Shown one piece after another: positions 22,537-43,600 of a stretch of DNA of 64,000 nt (position 1 is its first letter; every line of letters begins with the position of its first letter). Position numbers and translations under genes: made by a program. The notes below the pieces were generated by a model. That model did not search any database and was not told where the DNA came from. It saw only the letters and a list, made by a program, of their open reading frames with translations. Source of the stretch: Metridium senile (Eukaryota; Cnidaria; Anthozoa; Actiniaria; Metridiidae); assembly GCA_949775045.1 (NCBI GenBank), contig OX459103.1:10856605-10920604 (forward strand), in the 5' to 3' direction.

Positions 22537-25500
22537 GTTCCCTAGACAAATTTCTAGATCCGCCCCTGAGCTTGTACAAAATAGTACAATTAGACAGTTT
22601 TCTTTCATGGATATACTATTTGCACTCTAGTATATAGTTATCAACTATTAAATTATTGATAGGTAATAGAATGAAATTTGTAACACCGTAGAAAATGTTG
22701 ACTTAACTTTACTGACGTTTCGAGCTTTAGCCCTTCGTCGGAGTACTAAAGCTTGAAACGTCAGTAAAGTTAAGTCAACATTTTTTACGGTGTTACAAAT
22801 TTCATTGTATTATCTTTCGTTTATATCAAACACTGACTCAGCCTATACTAGTTCACTCGCTAGTTTCCATTTAAGTAAAGTTAAGTTAAGATTTTTTACG
22901 GTACGTGTTACAAATGTCATTCTATTACCCATCGTCTATATCAAACACCGATGCAGCCTATACTAGTTCACTCGCTAGTTTCCATATTTATTAAATTATA
23001 GCCTAACTAAGAATGCACTCAGGTCTGAGCCACACAAGCTTCATCACAGTATTGTTTAGTTATCAAAATGTATATAGGGGTTTTGTTGCATATCTTATTC
23101 TAATATTTTATCACAAGGCTGACATGTTTATTCCAGGAAGGCAAAACCCTTTGTTTTGAATCACCTAAAACACATGAAAGTGAGGGCAAGGGAACCCAAA
23201 GGGATTCAAAACTTTATTCCCATGAAGGCAAAAACCTGTGTTACCTTATGTTAAATAAATGCGCTTTTTCCCTAAAAAACCTGGGATTTGTGCTTACTTT
23301 ATATGTTGGGCTTCGAGTTTTCTTCTTGTTACAGCGACAAAGGAAGTCACAACCATCCTGTGGGATTCAGAAAGACATATTGAAGAACTGATTGACATGT
23401 AGTAATGAACTAGTTCATGTTGTGTGAGGGGGAGGGGGAGGGGGAGGGGGTACATAAATGATGCTAGCAATGATAAAGTCAAATTTATATAACACACTTT
23501 CCATGTGTAAATTTGTTCAAATATCTTCCAAAACAAGTGTTATTGTGAGTTTTCAGGGTTTGGGGTTCCTGTGTTATTTGTTTGTATATTTTCTATCTTT
23601 TGCGTAGTCATTTAGTTTTGTGTAAAAAAAACTTGTAACAAAAGACCACATCAGCTAATGCGTTGCTATGTATGTTTTGACCCAATTCAAAACCTCTGGA
23701 ATGTTCCACGTGACATTGAAATACATTAAACCAAGAATCTTATTCCCAAAAGATCTGAATTGGGACAAAACGTACATAGCAACATGTTAGCCGATTTGGT
23801 CTATGAGAGTGAATCAAGAATAAAGCTTAAGTGACTTACAGCTTGTAAACCTCCAAATTTAATCCACATCTGGTAGTTAGGTATTTGCTCTAGACCCTTT
23901 GCACCAGCAACATATCGTTGATATAGAAAACCAAGAATGAGATACACACCCCCAACAATAATGATACTGAAAACAGACAACAACAATAAAACTCATTAAT
24001 AGTTCACGAGATATTGATAAAGGAAATAATAATCATATAATATAAGTAAAGTATTGTAAAGTAAAATATGAACGAACCCATACTAGTACATAATTACACT
24101 ATCAGTAGAATAGAGCCAGCATTATGATTACTACCCCTCCCCCCTTAGTAGTACATAATTACACTATCAGTAGAATAGAGCCAGCATTATGATTACTACC
24201 CCTCCCCCCTTAGTAGTACATAATTACACTATCAGTAGAATAGAGCCAGCATTATGATTACTACCCCTCCCCACTTAGTAGTACATAATTACACTATCAG
24301 TAGAATAGAGCCAGCATTATGATTACTACCCCTCCCCACTTAGTAGTACATAATTACACTATCAGTAGAATAGAGCCAGCATTATGATTACTACCCCTCC
24401 CCCCTTAGTAGTACATAATTACACTATCAGTAGAATAGAGCCAGCATTATGATTACTACCCCTCCCCCCTTAGTAGTACATAATTACACTATCAGTAGAA
24501 TAGAGCCAGCATTATGATTACTACCCCTCCCCCCTTAGTAGTACATAATTACACTATCAGTAGAATAGAGCCAGCATTATGATTACTACCCATCCCCCCT
24601 TAGTAGTACATAATTACACTATCAGTAGAATAGAACCAGCATTATGATTACTACCCCTCCCCCCTTAGTAGTACACACTTACACTATTAGTAGAATAGAG
24701 CCAGCATTATCTGTACATCACCACCCCTCCCCCTTAGTAGTACATACTTACACTATCAGTAGAATAGAGCCAGCACTATGAATTATCACCACCCCTTCCC
24801 CCTTAGTAATACATACTTACACTATCAGTAGAATAGAGCCAGCATTATGATAACTACATGTACCCCTCCCCCTAAGTAGTACATACTTACACTATCAGTA
24901 GGATGGAGCCAGCACTCAATGAATTATCTGGTGGTTTAACTGTGCATGCTGCCTTGTTGTTCAGCTCAAACAAGTAATAGCATTCATCAACCTTGCTGTC
25001 ATTGGAATCTCTGTATTCTTCTAATACTCTAAATGTACCCTACAAAAGAGGTATTTATTAATTAATTAATTTCCACAACCTAATCAACAAATATATAGAT
25101 TGTATTTACATGATATAACAAGCCATGTTACACAGATTTCATTACTACACGCCCAACAGAGTTTGTGAAGGGAGTTGGCGATTCTCTTCTGTCAATCAAA
25201 CACAATTTGTCTAGACATTTTACAAAGTTGTCAACAACAGTTCAATGAAAAATCATTTTTTTTCCCGGACCTAAAGATATATTTTAGGTAGACTGTTCAA
25301 ACTAAATAAGTTTCATACGACAATTGTATTTTTTTCAAATTTCTCTTCAAAATGACATTTGTACCTGTTTTATGTTAACATCAACCCTTGTATACAGTTC
25401 ACGTAATTAGTTGTTTAGACAAATTGTGTTTGATTGACAGAAGAGTATCGCCATCTTCGCTTCACAAATTTTTTGTCTGACAGCGCGTAGTAATGAAATC

Positions 25501-28500
25501 AGTGGTAAATCTATAAAATGTCTTAAGCTAGTAAACTGATATTTTAATTATATATGTCTTAGAAAGAATCCATTTCTGAAAAGTTTGACTATTTGTGATG
25601 TTTGGCTTAGTAGTTATTCAGAGCCAATAGATCATTTCACGGTTCTCTTCAATCAGCCTCAGTTTTGATAGCTTGTATTTAGAAATTAAATATGGAAACT
25701 GGAATTTTGAAGTGTTTCAACAGCTTATGGATGCATACAATTACAGTGCGACTACTGAAACCGGGACCACCAAAACATTATTATCCAATCACGATTGAGA
25801 ATGTGAACAATAGAATCTCTGCAAATGTTTCATTTTGTTGCTTAAAATGCTAAAACATTTCATTATATATGAAGGGAATAGATCAAGGTTGAATAAGAAA
25901 CATCTTAGCCTGTGAGAACCTTCTACTAGTTTTTTCTTTGATCTCAAAAAATTCATAGTTTGAAATTTGATTGGGTGATCCTGGTTTCAGTAGTCGCACT
26001 GTAAAGATATATTCTTTTATTATAAATATCATACAAATAAAGCTATTGCATTGAAACAAAGCTTGTTGACTCATTTGCATATTATTTGCATACACCCATT
26101 ATAAACAAGTTCCCATTTAAATATGTACTTTCCCATTTAAATCTGTACTTTCCCATTTAAATCTGTACTTATGCAAATTGTGTTGATGTGTGCTAAACAC
26201 ACAGATCAACCAATCAGAGTATATTATTTCTGAAGTGAACTTCTCTGATTGGTTGATCTGTGTGTTTAGCACACAACACAATTTGCATAAGTACAGATTT
26301 AAATGGGAAAGTACAGATTTAAATGGGAACCTGTTAATAACAGCTATTAGTATAAATACAAAGGTGATTATACAAAATCGCGCACTCTGATTGGTTTGCT
26401 ATCTCGGATTATCAGCGGATAATCACCTTTTCGGACAAAATGGCTGCCAGTAGTTGTTTTGTCACTGTTAGCGAAGATGAAATTGAAATTAACAATTATT
26501 CGCCGAAGGGGAAGTGATTATCGGTGAATATTTACCTCGCAGCTCGAAGACTCACAGCTCGGTAAATATTCACCGATAATCACTTCCCCTTCGGCGAATA
26601 ATTGTTAATTGTTTGAAAATGTGTCCTATAGTGTACTTGTGGTAAAATGACGTAATTGTGAAGACCACCAAACAGTATTATAATATGACTTACTTTAACA
26701 GCATTAGGATCACATGTGACCATGACAGAACTTTTCCTGGCTTGGTTACCACAATGGCTTCCATACTTTTCACCATTTGGGTAAGTTATCATAAACCAGT
26801 CCGCTAAAATATACAACAATATGACTTGAAATCTTTGTACGGTTTTTGGATTTCTGTCATTTTACAGTGTGAATCAAAAAACCGAGGGCACCTAGAAATA
26901 TTTTAGAAATCATTTATTATTTGTTGAACAACTCACAAACAACAATATCACCGCAAGAAGTTTGACTGATGTGTAGTATGATAAAAAAGTGTTCATAATA
27001 CATCTTATTTCTAATCTATTCGCTCATGGGATGTGGGTTACACAGGGTTCGTACAGAATCCTCAGAGAGAATTTCCAAAACTTTTTCAAAGCCTATTACC
27101 GTACTCAAAATTCCAAAACCACACAAGCGAAAAGTGCCAACAGGCATTGATTGCGGCAGGCAAAAAAATCATCAGCCGTTTTTTAATTACAACGAAAACA
27201 GTTCTTTGCAAGGTAGGAGCTGTATGGTGGCCCATGGTTATCATCCATTTTTATACTATACTTTTCGAATTCTATTTCCATTTCTATTCTTATTTTAATT
27301 TCCTTTTCCATTTCCATTGTGATTTCTATTTTAATTTTGAATTCACGTTCAATTTTAGTATGAAATTGATTTCAAAAGTAAAGTCTAAAACGTTTTATTT
27401 ATTATTTTTATTATTACTAGTATTTTTGGTAAATTAAAATTAAATTTGCAGTTGATTTCTCTTTTTAATTCAAAAATTATCTCGCTCGGCCGGCCCATTG
27501 AAAAAAAAAAATGAAAAGCTTCACATGGCCCATCGTTATCATTATCAGCGTATCCCATGATCCTTTGCCTGTCACATTCCAGCACGTGGTTTTAGTTATG
27601 GCGGATCAATGGAAGGATGACGAAAGTTTACAACTGGATTTATCAAAGTATGTGAAAGAAAACTTGAAAAGAAAAGAAATTTTAGACTTTGTGAGGAGAG
27701 ATTACCCAAGTTATAGTTGGAGTCTTCCAACTCTCGATCGTCGTCTTCGTTTCTTTGGCATCAAATACATTGATTATGCTACCCCTCTTGAAGAAGTCTC
27801 AAATGCCATCGAAAAAGAGCTCGATGGGCCAGGACAATTACTCGGTTATAGAGCACTAAACCAGAAGTTACGTACTGAATATGATATAAAAGTTCCAAGA
27901 CATTTAGTATACAACATGATGGTGGAGATGGATCCAGAAGGTCTTGAAGCTAGAGGGCTTCAAAAGAAGAAAAAGAAGAAGAAAGTACCATTTGCATGTG
28001 AAGGTCCGCTAGCAGTAGTATCGTTGGATGGTCACGATAAACTTTGCGGTTACCAGAACTGGACTTTTCCTCTGGGTATCTACGGAGCTATCGATACATT
28101 TTCAAGGAAAATATTGTTTTTGTACATCTGTCATTCCAACTCAAATCCTGTTATTATCGGTAAACACTACCTTGAATACCTGTATGAAGCCCAAGTAATA
28201 CCAAAATACTTGAGGATTGATAAAGGAACGGAGACTGGAAAGATGGCTACACTTCATGCTTACCTTATAAACAGCAAAGGCATCATGGACAATCCTCTTG
28301 ACTCAGTGATATATGGTCCATCCACTACAACAAGATTGAGCGTTGGTGGCGCAATTTACACGAAAGACTTGAGCTCTACTTTAAAGTACAGTTAACCCAG
28401 TTATTGAGAGCAAACGATTACGATCCTTATAACGACCTCCATAGGCAGTTGTTGTCTTATGTATTCATGCCAGTGATCCAGAAAGAATGCGATACATTTG

Positions 28501-31500
28501 TAAATGTTTGGAACACTCATAGAATACGTGAGCAAGATAAATTATTACTACCAACAGGTGTACCCAACCATATGTTTTCTTTTCCAGACGATTATGGAGG
28601 TGAAAACATGGGGATCCCTGTAACAGTAGACAAGCTCAAAGAAGTAGCTGAACTTTCTGGTTTACTTGACATTGCAAGTCCAGATAATATATCTACACAA
28701 GTACGAAGTCAGTGTAAGAAGTTGATTGACAATTCTTCACAGCTAGAACCCCATCAAGCAAAGAACGCTTATTTATTTCTTAAGCAAAATGTAAAGTAGA
28801 TTTTTGTTCATTGCTGGTATTACATGTAAATATCAATATAACTTGGTATTTTACGAGTCATTTGTTGCCCACGTAGCGTGCACTCGCAATGAATCGGAAA
28901 TCACAGTTCAGTAAGTGATGTGAGAACATTGCAATAGACTACTGATAATAAGCGTTATCCAAAGAAACATTTGTACTTTTGATGACATTTATAATTGAAT
29001 CTTTTTATAAAATACATTATTGTTTATTTTATAATTTATTGAATGTAGAAAAAGGGGAAACTTATAAAATTACAAAGCCCAATGTATATAAAAGTGTTTT
29101 GTCTTGCCATCATTGTGAAATCTACAACAGCCAAGTTTGATATGTACCGTGAGAACACTGCTTTCTCATTGGTTGATATTTTGAGCTTCTCAGATATGAA
29201 TAAATTTGCAAGCAGCGTATTTTTTGTGCTTGGTCGCTAAAAATATAAACAATTTATTTATGGATGGCTTTGTTTCGATATTTAATCGACAATAGCGAAT
29301 AACAAACGCATCTAATGTGCAGTCTTTCGAATCAGTTTTTTGAGCTTTTATGGTATAATATAAACACTGTTTTTTTTAAGCTTTTTAAAAAACAAAGAAA
29401 CAAAAAAGAACAAAACAACAAATAATTTCGTAAGCTGTTTATTAAACTCAACATTTAGATTTGTTTTATAAACCGTGAAATAATATTGCCTATAAATGTG
29501 TATTAGATGTGTACTTATACAAGAACAAAGGAAAACAATGAATTTGGGCCCTACAAGATATAAAATGTGTATTTAATTCGATAGCTATTTCACGGGTTTA
29601 TGAAAACCACTATCTATAGGCCCTTTTAATAAGTCCCAAAGTGTTGTGTTTTCCGCGCTTGACGTCAAATTTATTCTCTTGCAATTTTGTATGATATGAA
29701 AGGCATTGAAAATAATAAATTTGACGGCAAGCGCGGAAAACACAACACGTCGGGACTTCCTAAAAGGGTCTATAAAATTGTTCATCAGTTGTATTTTAAA
29801 GTAAAAATTTGTTAGATAGAGTGATTGCATAGTTGTGAAGTGAACAGTAATTATGTAAACTTTTACAGCGCAACGCGTAAAAGTATGGCCACTGATAATG
29901 TATTCGCATACTTCTGTCTCGCAATCGATCCAATCAGCGACAAGATAACACAATCCTACAACGCTGATTGGATCGATGGCGAGACAGAAGTATGCGAATA
30001 CATTATCAGTGACCATACTTTTACGCGTTGCGCTGTAAAGAACTCAAATATTTTGTGTTAATTTAGTAACGCTGAAATCAAGTATAACGTAGTAATACAT
30101 CGCTAGTTTAATTCAGTAACCAAAACGTTCATGCATTTCTTAAATGTCTTTAAGTTCCATCATTTCACAGAACTTATTACACTCGTGGACTTCTTTGAAG
30201 TGATTAATCCCTACGATTGAAAGGTTCCCTGCACAAAAGAAGAAATCCTCCGAGTCATCACTTTCTTCGCTCTGCTCGGGTATCTTGGTTGTAGCCAATT
30301 CAGGGTCGTAAAGATCATACTTGGCGCCCTGAATGTCTAAGATCATCAGCTTTTTCTTTGAATACAGATAACTGAAATGAGCTAGACACTGTGCTTTTAC
30401 GAAGATATCATCATATTCCTTGCTTGGAGAGTCAATACAGTGTCCATCGTTATTGACGTACTTGGAAAAATCACCAGCTACGAACTCTTCTACTGTGACG
30501 GGACAATCTTCATACAGAGAAAAGTAAACTTTTCCATATTTAAATAAGTCACCAAACTCTACAGGGACTTTTGTTGCAAAACGCGCGGTAATATTTCTGG
30601 CGAGAGCGTGCATTTGCACTTGTTTACGGGTGTGATTCTCTAGAGGCATTTGGAGTGTGTTAGTAATTGTGTCAATTGATTTCTTTGTGTACTTCTTAAT
30701 TACCCATACTGTTGATTTCTTCGTGCACTTTGCTTTGAAAGCATCTCTAAAAGCGTCGCTTGCGAAAGCCGTTTTCTCCACTTCTACTTCAATACTTGGA
30801 ATATCTATCCATTTGCAGCTCTCGACATTGAATATTTCTAACTTTAATATGGCGACTTGGGGTGGCTTGACAAGTTTACCCGCTTTCATCAGGTCACCAA
30901 TAGAAATTGATTTGGGATAAACTGTTCTAGGCATACATACTTGCCTAGTGCTAGATTGTGCTACGGCTTTGGATGGTGAAATCGGAACGGATTTAACCCC
31001 CTTTAGTACCGGTACTTGCTTCTTTGCATGTGAGAAATCTTCCTCCTTTGGTTGAAGAAAGCGAATACAGTAAACTTTTTTCCCTTTTATTTGCTCCATT
31101 TTATTACAGGACGGCCCCCTATCTGATGCCAGAACATCACATGATCCTGTTGGGGCCTTGTAGAATCGCTCACAGGCTTCTTTTATGGTTTCGATGGACA
31201 ATTCCTCGTATTCTGCGAACGGGACAAAGTACCTTGTGTCCAAAGGTTCGTACTTTTTTAGCCGTCCTGAAGGCGTGGAAGCCATTCGTTGAACTAAAAT
31301 ATCATTTGGAACTTTGCCATGTCCTCGCTTCTCCTCAAATTCTCCTCTACCGTTCCTTTTTTGCCCGACTCTTTTTTCAAAATCATCCCAAGACTCTTTG
31401 AGCTTTCTTTTTTTCATTTTCGTGGCAATTTTTGCATCACATAAACAGCCAAGCGATCGCGACTAGTCTAACCGCACGTGGTTTGTTATGCAACATATTC

Positions 31501-34500
31501 GCAAAGGATCATGGGATACGCTGATAATGATAACGATGGGCCACGTGAAGCTTTTCATTTTTTTTTTTTTCAATGGGCCGGCCGAGCGAGATAATTTTTG
31601 AATTAAAAAGAGAAATCAACTGCAAATTTAATTTTAATTTACCAAAAATACTAGTAATAATAAAAATAATAAATAAAACGTTTTAGACTTTACTTTTGAA
31701 TCAATGGATGATAACCATGGGCCACCATAGAGCTGGGCAACCGTCATAAAAAAAAATTTTCATAACTTTTCTATAGCCCAGCAGGTGAAAAAGAAATTTT
31801 CCAAAACTTTCCAGGTCCTGGAAAAATGCATTACCAATTTCCAAAACTTTCCAAAACCCGTACAAACCCTGGTTACAAAAAGTAACAAAAAACTCAAAGT
31901 GTTCACGGTTCGAGTGTCCTCACTGTAATCATTTAATGTACATTCAACTCTATAATAGGGCTTTTTCATGATGGGGGTATTTTACTGGTACCAGAATGCT
32001 TTATAATTTTCTTCAATTTACATTCCTCTAATTTCTTTGATTTGCTTTGATTGACTTTTTATGATCCTTTCTTATATTATAATCAGGGTCTCTTGTGAAC
32101 AACAGTCAGCTTCATAGTTCTTGCCAATCAACCTCAGCCCTGATAGCTAGCAATATATTCTTTAGAATTTGCCTACAGGCTGTGGTGATTTGAGAAATGT
32201 ACACATTATTATATGTGTATGTAAAAGTTCCACTGGAAATAGCCAATTTCTAAAGAACATATAACATCAAACAAATCTTTGTAGCTTAGGGGTGGACCAT
32301 TTGACTTTTGAGGGGGGTGGATGATTTGGTCCGTGCAACAAATCTTTTTTAGCTTGATGGCATGCGCACAGAATTTATTTGATAGAAATGCAAAGATTTG
32401 AGTGGCGATTTTGGATTGCAGGAAATTTTTTTCTGCCCTTTGGGCCGTGCACAAAGTTTTTTCGAAATCATCCACCCCCTCCCCCTCAAAAGTTAAATGG
32501 TCCACCCCTTAGGAGGAATTTTTTAAAAATTAAAAGGTTGAGAACCAACAACTACTATTATGAATATAATATAACATGCTATCAAGACTAATGTTGATCA
32601 CCGCAAACTGTGACAACAATTATTTCACAAAAGATAAAGGGCAAATATTTCTGGTCTTTGTAGTATAATTATGGTATAATAATATAATATAATTTGAAAT
32701 CCCTATTTCTGTATAATAAAGTATAAACTTGAGTACTGTACTTACTTCCGCCCACCAGTCTAGAATTTGAAAACCTTCCTAAAGCTATTGGATGCTGCTT
32801 ATTTTTTCCTCCTGATTGTATAATGGCATCTGTTTCAGCAGCAGCACTTGCACATATATGCCATTTATAGAAATACTTGGTTACAGGCTCAGTGAACTCA
32901 TACCGCCTGGAAAAGAAAAGAAAAACACTTGTATTTAGTCGCATATCATGTCTACAGGGCTACTGGAATAGTGTGATTTCTGAATTCTCACGATTCCCCT
33001 AAAATTGCATTAAATCGCACAATTCCTAAAAATAGAACAATTTTATAAACATTGCATATTTTTGACAATTTTCACAATTATGACCAAATATTATATGGAT
33101 TATTCATCAGAAATGCAAAAAAATGGAAAATGGAAATGATTTCAATGCAAATTCCCTCACAAATTGCACAGTAAATCAACAAACACGGACATCTGCGAAC
33201 ATGTTCGATCAATCATCAAGGCGTCACTTACACAACTCTACCAGAAACCCTGTGTCAATAACATTCATAATTTTATTATGAGTGTTTTTCAATGGGCAGA
33301 CCACCAATTTTTAATCTAAAAATAATGCATATCGCAATAGTATTTCTCGAAATGTTATGACATATACTTCCTAGAGATAGATTGAAGTTTATTTTGCAGT
33401 CACTTTTTTCTGAGATCAGAGCGTCCCATAGCAACGCTACGTTGCTAAGGGTGGTTTTATATCCATATATCGATACATTTTTATATCTCTGAACGATATG
33501 AAATTTAGTAACTTTGTTTATATTTATATTTATTTTCCTTTTTAAAACATTTTTATTAATTATATAGATTTAGCTTAGATTTCATTCCATGTACTGTATA
33601 TAGAATTTTATCAATCATATTTTTTATTTTATTTTATTTATTTATTTATTTATTTATTTTTTTTTTTTCCTTCTAAAATTGTAAAGCGGTGTTGAGCTTT
33701 TGTAATTGTCGCTATATAAAATAAAGTTATTATTATTATTATTATTTATTCACAGAGCATTTCTCGGTCTCACAGAAAATTTTGAGCTTATCGCTCTTGT
33801 CTACTGTTACAGTACTTCAATGTCAACAAATTGAGCGAGTATGGTTGAATTCTCTAATAGGAAAACCAAACTACACGCATTTATAATTTTTGGGCATAAA
33901 TTTTGCGATAACTCAAAATTTGTGAATTCTCGACTTCAAAATGAGGACTCAATAGAGTATTGATATTCTATACTGAGCTCATTCAGAAGAAGAATGGTTC
34001 GTCTCTCATCTCTAGCTATTTCATAGAAATCGCTGAAATTGATGTCCATAATTAGAGATTTGTATCCGGTACAATATTCTAGATTTTCATAGCAAATTAA
34101 TTAATGGCATGATAAGCTTCTTGCTCTTTTAAACAATCTGAGTAGAATTGTTTGAAGCTCGGCTTGAAGTTACTTAGTACCTAATACTAATTACTTGCAA
34201 AGTTTTAGGTTGTTCGATATACTCTAAGGGTATCAAAACGAAGTACTAAGCTGGTAACTTTTGCTCTAGCTTTCATTATTAAATCAATATCTCAATCATT
34301 ATTGATTAGACCAATACATCGGTTTGAAAAATATAATGAAATACTTAAAATGACATATTTGACGGTGTATAAGTCTACCTTTCAATAACACAAGAAATTG
34401 ACCTTCAAAAGTCAACCTCGACTTATACACTGGGTATAAAACTCAATGTATTGATTTTTCACATAATATCAAAGCAAAACTATTTTTTTATCATTAAAAG

Positions 34501-42894: not shown

Positions 42895-43600
42895 CCCCTC
42901 CCCCTTAGTAAAACATACTTACACTATCAGTAGAATAGCTAGAGCCAGCACTATGAATTATCACCACCCCTCCCCCGTTAGTACTACATACTTACACTAT
43001 CAGTAGAATCAAGCCACACAAGGAATTATCACCACCCCTCCCCCTAAGTAGTACATACTTACACAATCAGTAGATTCAAGCCACACAATGAATTATCACC
43101 ACCCCTCCCCCTTAGTGGTACATACTTACACTATCAGTAGAATAGAGCCAGCACTATGAATTATCACCACCCCTCCCCCTAAGTGGTACATACTTACACT
43201 ATCGGTAGAATAGAGCCAGCACTATGAATTATCACCTGCACCCCTCCCCCTTAGTAGTACATACTTACACTATCATTTGAATACAGCCAGCACTCAATGC
43301 ATTTATAACCACCCCTCCCCCCTTAGTAGTACATACCTACTACATGTATCAGTAGGATGGAGCCAGCACTCAATGAGTTATCTGTTCATGTATCATCAAC
43401 CCTTCCCCTTAGGGGCTGTTTATATGAAGGTGAGTTCTCTCTGATAGCCGGGATTACTCGTTTGTTTTGTATCCCCCGGGGGACATAAAACAATAAAGTT
43501 ATCCCGGCTAGCAGGGACAACTCGCTTTCATATAAACAGACCCTTAGGAGTACATACTTACAGTAACAGTAGGATAGAGCCTGAGTATGCAATTTTGTCG
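42895..43600 (-). repeat. Minisatellite with exon-4 donor, copy B version (~8 units)
   Basis: Units of about 63-74 bp with ACATACTTACACTATCAGTA, GAATAGAGCCAGCACTATGA, ATTATCACCACCCCTCCCCC, partly diverged, next to exon 4 of copy B (boundary 43562). A separate palindromic patch (43410-43545, GTTTATATGAAGGTGAGTT and AACTCGCTTTCATATAAAC) has been inserted close to the exon. Most units here keep the GTAAGT donor. Confidence 0.85.

Follow-up and report, generated by a model that had tools for sequence, protein, structure and literature searches.

A probable two-gene IS3EU transposon with an alpha-kinase gene, nested in an unrelated repeat element of Metridium senile

A 64,000-nucleotide stretch of the Metridium senile genome (below, the window; assembly GCA_949775045.1, contig OX459103.1, C9:10856605-10920604) contains a transposase gene and an intact alpha-kinase gene that converge between two long terminal inverted repeats (TIRs). 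The element is very probably a degraded two-gene cut-and-paste DNA transposon of the IS3EU superfamily, inserted into an unrelated miniature inverted-repeat transposable element (MITE), and its kinase is a putative dedicated trans-acting helper. Judged from sequence, its termini, its 6-bp target-site duplication (TSD), and its integrase-core transposase fit the eukaryotic IS3EU superfamily. Both genes had been recognized in an earlier reading of the bare letters (the original prediction), and profile searches bore this out. The integrase core of the transposase matched PF24764 (E 3e-23), and the aligned triad D144, D208, and E248 (numbering of an intact copy, L023) was invariant in 35 aligned sequences. 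The kinase matched PF02816 (E 1e-26), with scores of 94.6 and 98.4 bits against a curated cut-off of 21.3. No solved structure matched the transposase sequence at E-values up to 10, and of the 4 and 13 pattern matches obtained when IMG/VR was scanned with the profiles of the kinase and the transposase, respectively, none was confirmed as a relative.

Further copies were sought in the 389-Mb assembly with a 4829-bp query, the unit that the original prediction had taken for the transposon. Since 40 of 1581 candidates were scored, with 18 places then extracted, the copy number obtained is a lower bound. Among these 18 places and the window, nine copies of the window element's family (family 1), the window copy included, had two ends, all of the form TATGG..CCATA; the copies were recruited by DNA similarity and their ends were placed with a window-derived pattern, a procedure that favours matching ends. 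A perfect 6-bp TSD flanked seven of the nine. The original prediction called for a check of whether kinase and transposase co-occur between the same inverted repeats in many insertions; both genes, whole or broken, were present and convergent in 9/9 two-ended copies. Copies L022 and L023 are intact: their TIRs are 348 bp long and 99.7% identical, transposase and kinase begin at base 378 counted from the left end and at base 432 counted from the right, respectively, and 1163 bp separate the convergent genes. The gap's longest open stretch in L023 is 101 aa, and the window copy has no third open reading frame of at least 170 aa. The intact pair L022/L023, located on different contigs, shares 99.93% identity and keeps both frames open; the family therefore moved recently. 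The transposase frame is open over more than 400 aa in L021, L022, L023, and L029.

A second, diverged family in the same genome (family 2; contig C15, loci L042 and L039) has the same layout. Its ends are TATGGTGGCCCATTAACG, its TIRs extend for 290 bp at 86% identity, and it is flanked by the TSD CACTAC. The family-2 kinase is open and 37% identical to that of family 1, and its transposase is split, perhaps in part as a multi-exon gene; part of the split is a nested repeat of ~0.8 kb. At a second family-2 place (L041) the kinase half is retained. The features that characterize IS3EU elements thus recur in both families: TA..TA termini in the nine two-ended copies and in family 2, TIRs well over 30 bp, and a 6-bp TSD in the seven copies and in family 2, with the kinase opposite to the transposase inside the same ends throughout. 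The target sites of the seven TSD-bearing copies and of the family-2 copy all fit S-W-N-N-W-S, a pattern chosen post hoc that is found at 5.2% of window hexamers.

Association of the two genes was also evaluated around every transposase match retained. The transposase search scored 104 of 295 candidates, and neighbourhoods were counted for 38 kinase rows (33 of 55 plus 5 of 26) and, once second pieces of a locus had been dropped, for 98 of 107 transposase rows. Where the transposase match was at least 85% identical, a kinase match lay within 10 kb in 9 of 12 cases, the remaining three (L029, L030, and L031) having one recognizable end only. All 11 transposase–kinase neighbour pairs were convergent. 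In public contigs, eight kinase–transposase pairs occurred on contigs of equal size in bases; 115 of 120 listed rows were used on each side (190 and 452 found), rows lacking a contig size being dropped. At 3 kb and above, seven pairs were equal-sized and one differed by 1 to 20 bases, so that chance explains little there; below 3 kb the corresponding numbers were 1 and 31. One of the eight pairs, from Ciona, lies on a single 12.3-Mb contig, which therefore establishes a common contig only and does not imply adjacency. When the window family was added to the eight public pairs, kinase distances correlated with transposase distances (Mantel r 0.55; 329 of 20,000 permutations as high). The proposal that the kinase is a standing component of the element thus holds up, in 9/9 two-ended insertions, in the second family, and in the public pairs.

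The kinase itself is predicted to be catalytically active. Across an alignment of 49 sequences, the Lys, Glu, Asp, and Gln that we take to be catalytic and the His and Cys presumed to bind zinc were either invariant or conserved at 90% or more, and they line up with TRPM7 in an alignment to 1ia9; structure comparison was informative over residues 184-425. Outside the catalytic domain, the N-terminal half is conserved and common to the transposon-type kinases. The gene is under purifying selection; stops were excluded from the codon count. Among the matches listed for the two proteins, the relatives with a named organism are from cnidarians and tunicates. In a tree, a check that the original prediction had called for, the transposon-type kinases formed one clade apart from eight cellular sequences; bootstrap support was unsettled, a long-branch warning applies, and the names of two host rows (L045 and L046) were assigned by eye. 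The clade comprises 26 rows, six of which (P0001, L039, P0031, P0051, P0055, and P0061) have a transposase on the same element or on an equal-sized contig, while the other 20 were labelled by homology; the P rows were chosen among matches to these kinases, and the sampling therefore favours a single clade. Database entries named MHCK-like or eEF2K (P0051, P0054, P0056, and P0115) fell inside it, and other entries named TRPM6-like are close to the transposon-type kinases by similarity. The names of the entries inside the clade look like mislabelling.

Several observations weigh against the proposed reading. Two of the nine two-ended copies (L023 and L026) have no TSD, the transposase is broken in six (the window copy and L024-L028), and the kinase is broken or truncated in five (L021, L024, L026, L027, and L028). 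A kinase lies nearby for only 2 of 21 transposase matches at 45-85% identity, mostly short fragments, and within 10 kb for 0 of 65 matches below 40% identity in the same genome. One relative without a kinase, L047, contains the same Pfam domain in a 420-aa open frame and recurs almost unchanged at L048; this transposase type as such therefore needs no kinase. With 40 of 1581 and 104 of 295 candidates scored, kinase-free copies could have escaped notice. Finally, the tie to fungal IS3EU elements comes from a published description and not from sequence comparison. The notion of a kinase that defines its transposon class must accordingly be narrowed, the kinase marking a sub-lineage rather than every transposase of the type.

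Two side observations concern relatives and remnants of these elements. Kinase-free transposase relatives (28-39% identity) are several, some in near-identical copies, and L047 has an array of ~29-bp repeats upstream. Six loci on C7 (L032-L037; 18.26-18.85 Mb) hold decayed kinase pieces and no transposase match; five of them share identical flanking bases, and one truncated insertion therefore seems to have been copied along with its surroundings.

How might the kinase contribute? The transposase gene begins 30 bp and the kinase gene 84 bp past near-identical TIRs, so that a single promoter sequence present in both repeats may drive both genes and lead to their co-expression. The transposase would excise the element at TATGG/CCATA and join it to staggered 6-bp targets with the SWNNWS preference. 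The kinase, a predicted active Ser/Thr enzyme, would act in trans, its conserved N-terminal half directing it to a nuclear target. Phosphorylation of a host chromatin, silencing, or repair protein would then favour transposition or expression. Such a host protein is the most likely target, to which we give an even chance; the transposase itself comes next, as a distinctly less probable substrate. Our preference is for a substrate that assists transposition or opposes silencing; otherwise, the kinase would be cargo, or a scaffold with another role. The stronger proposal, that one IS3EU sub-lineage extends across animals and fungi and is a true two-component system, requiring its own alpha-kinase, whose N-terminal half would be transposon-specific, in trans for efficient transposition or escape from silencing, is put forward tentatively, as something short of probable.

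The most serious competitor, though an unlikely one, is that the kinase is cargo acting outside transposition, for example as a germ-line selfish trait or through host stress or immunity. Among other alpha-kinases, eEF2K acts on translation elongation, MHCK on myosin, and ALPK1 on innate immunity, functions that would suit such a cargo, and relatives that seemingly moved recently have no kinase nearby. On the other side, the kinase has stayed with the transposase in diverged families and the fungal layout matches, which suggests a role tied to the element, albeit not decisively. A catalytically dead kinase serving as a DNA- or protein-binding scaffold is a good deal less probable: constraint on the N-terminal half, outside the catalytic domain, would agree with it, but the presumed catalytic and zinc-binding residues are kept across the 49 sequences and align with TRPM7. 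A single capture event, in which just one transposon copy took up a host kinase, is hardly credible. Related transposases lacking a nearby kinase are indeed common, as the counts at lower identity show, but every two-ended copy found carries the kinase, which refutes such capture for the window family; the second family repeats the layout with its diverged kinase, the eight public pairs (Ciona among them) point the same way, and the transposon-type kinases form one clade instead of nesting among the four host alpha-kinase sequences included. This leaves room only for an older capture, at the root of the sub-lineage.

The trans-acting helper reading applies to an element that is only part of what the original prediction had delimited. 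That region is a nest of three elements, with the ~316-bp MITE outermost (Table 1). At 27043 and 31871 the CAGGGTT.../...AACCCTG ends are present with their adjoining GTTACA repeats, as are the long internal inverted repeats (141 nt at 100%, 68 nt at 99%, and 32 nt at 97%). When the left part of the outer MITE was compared with the genome, matches started at its first base in 40 of 40 scored places, window included (260 candidates). In 5/5 other copies, an unbroken MITE of 307-316 bp runs across the window's split point, where one GAGCTG or a near-match is found; the window has GAGCTG on both sides of 27223-31729, and joining its flanks yields the same MITE sequence with a single GAGCTG at the joint. 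In the window, the outer MITE is flanked by the 6-bp repeat GTTACA; a 6-bp repeat is also seen at L052-L055, four of the five other copies, and not at L051. Among the 40 places scored, genome matches to the 4829-bp unit ended inside 27223/31729, never at the outer ends. A 4829-bp element with CAGGGTTCGTACAG ends is thus practically excluded: the ends and GTTACA repeats do exist, but these ends bound an uninterrupted MITE in all five copies examined, the left end alone has 260 candidate places (all 40 scored ones are matches), the remaining family-1 copies show TATGG..CCATA ends amid other flanks, and the empty-site alignment of the outer MITE rules the unit out.

The window copy of the IS3EU element is degraded, its kinase remaining intact. 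The transposase gene has lost one base ahead of the third catalytic residue (between 28328 and 28329), the right TIR is shortened, and a 170-bp MITE has been gained; the frameshift and the nested MITE were overlooked in the original prediction. The 170-bp sequence (29866-30035) is missing at the same spot in the seven other two-ended copies aligned (L021-L027). It is a near-perfect palindrome with TA flanks and at least 19 matches of 95-100% elsewhere in the genome, which suggests a separate MITE of a type indicated by these flanks.

Table 1. Positions of the nested elements and their parts in the window
Feature	Positions	Strand
TSD GTTACA of outer MITE, left	27037..27042	
Outer ~316-bp MITE, left part, ending with left GAGCTG; insertion site	27043..27222	
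IS3EU TSD GAGCTG, left copy	27217..27222	
IS3EU transposon proper, 4507 bp, TATGGTGGCCCATGG..CCATGGGCCACCATA	27223..31729	+
Left TIR, ~346 bp	27223..27568	
Transposase gene, frameshifted in window copy; PF24764 integrase core	27598..28799	+
66-bp inverted repeat (88%) between convergent genes, present in other copies too	29615..29774	
Nested palindromic MITE, 170 bp, TA on each side	29866..30035	
Alpha-kinase gene, 425 aa, intact; kinase domain residues 220-417	30140..31417	-
Right TIR, ~119 bp shorter than in intact copies	31501..31729	
IS3EU TSD GAGCTG, right copy	31730..31735	
Outer MITE, right part	31736..31871	
TSD GTTACA of outer MITE, right	31872..31877	

Elsewhere in the window, an open frame on the minus strand (2-1120), ~26 kb from the transposon, reads by eye like what we take to be the start of a REV1 polymerase domain. 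A 124-bp palindromic stretch, 90% self-complementary, is located at 26487-26610, ~0.4 kb left of the outer MITE, and two tandem arrays (24077-24914 and 42895-43370), ~18 kb apart, consist of related units of 65 and 68 bp (CCCTTAGTAGTACATA...).

If the two-component proposal is right, the lineage would be the first among eukaryotic DNA transposons whose machinery includes a dedicated protein kinase. Retention of a kinase by a transposon lineage suggests that phosphorylation is a step under the mobile element's own control, and since intact pairs exist, a role of the kinase in transposition is open to a clean test. The results also carry a warning for annotation, in that cnidarian and tunicate proteins named MHCK-like or eEF2K sit in the transposon clade. 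Rust fungi are reported to be rich in alpha-kinases (PMC4469406, PMC5295586), and a published list of genes under diversifying selection includes one rust alpha-kinase (PMC4150398); the alpha-kinase enrichment may in part consist of transposon genes.

The transposon-type kinases share the catalytic fold and key residues of the cellular alpha-kinases TRPM7, MHCK A, eEF2K, and ALPK1, and differ from them in forming a separate clade with a common N-terminal half. IS3EU/GingerRoot elements in general are described (PMC10045372) as having TA..TA termini, usually a 6-bp TSD, and an IS3/IS481-like DDE transposase, all of which the Metridium senile elements have; the word kinase is absent from the main text of that paper. 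The original prediction knew of no transposon class defined by an alpha-kinase, a statement overtaken by a 2025 report (Kojima, PMC12730594), the sole paper we found that combines IS3EU and alpha-kinase; none was found that joins alpha-kinase, transposable element, and cnidaria. The pairing is thus already in print, briefly, for fungi. According to that report, the fungal TET+ IS3EU elements carry a transposase and an oppositely oriented alpha-kinase, and rust fungal IS3EU families have TAYGG..CCRTA termini with TIRs above 30 bp. The elements described here are alike in the opposed gene pair, the 6-bp TSD, and the termini. A difference lies in the TET/JBP dioxygenase gene that separates transposase and kinase in the fungal elements, a gene that the same text states for TET+ families only, whereas no such gene was seen among the open reading frames of the 1163-bp Metridium senile gap (at most 101 aa in L023), which was not domain-searched. 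To the fungal account, the present analysis adds animal members, a comparison of two families within one genome, a kinase clade, and a target pattern.
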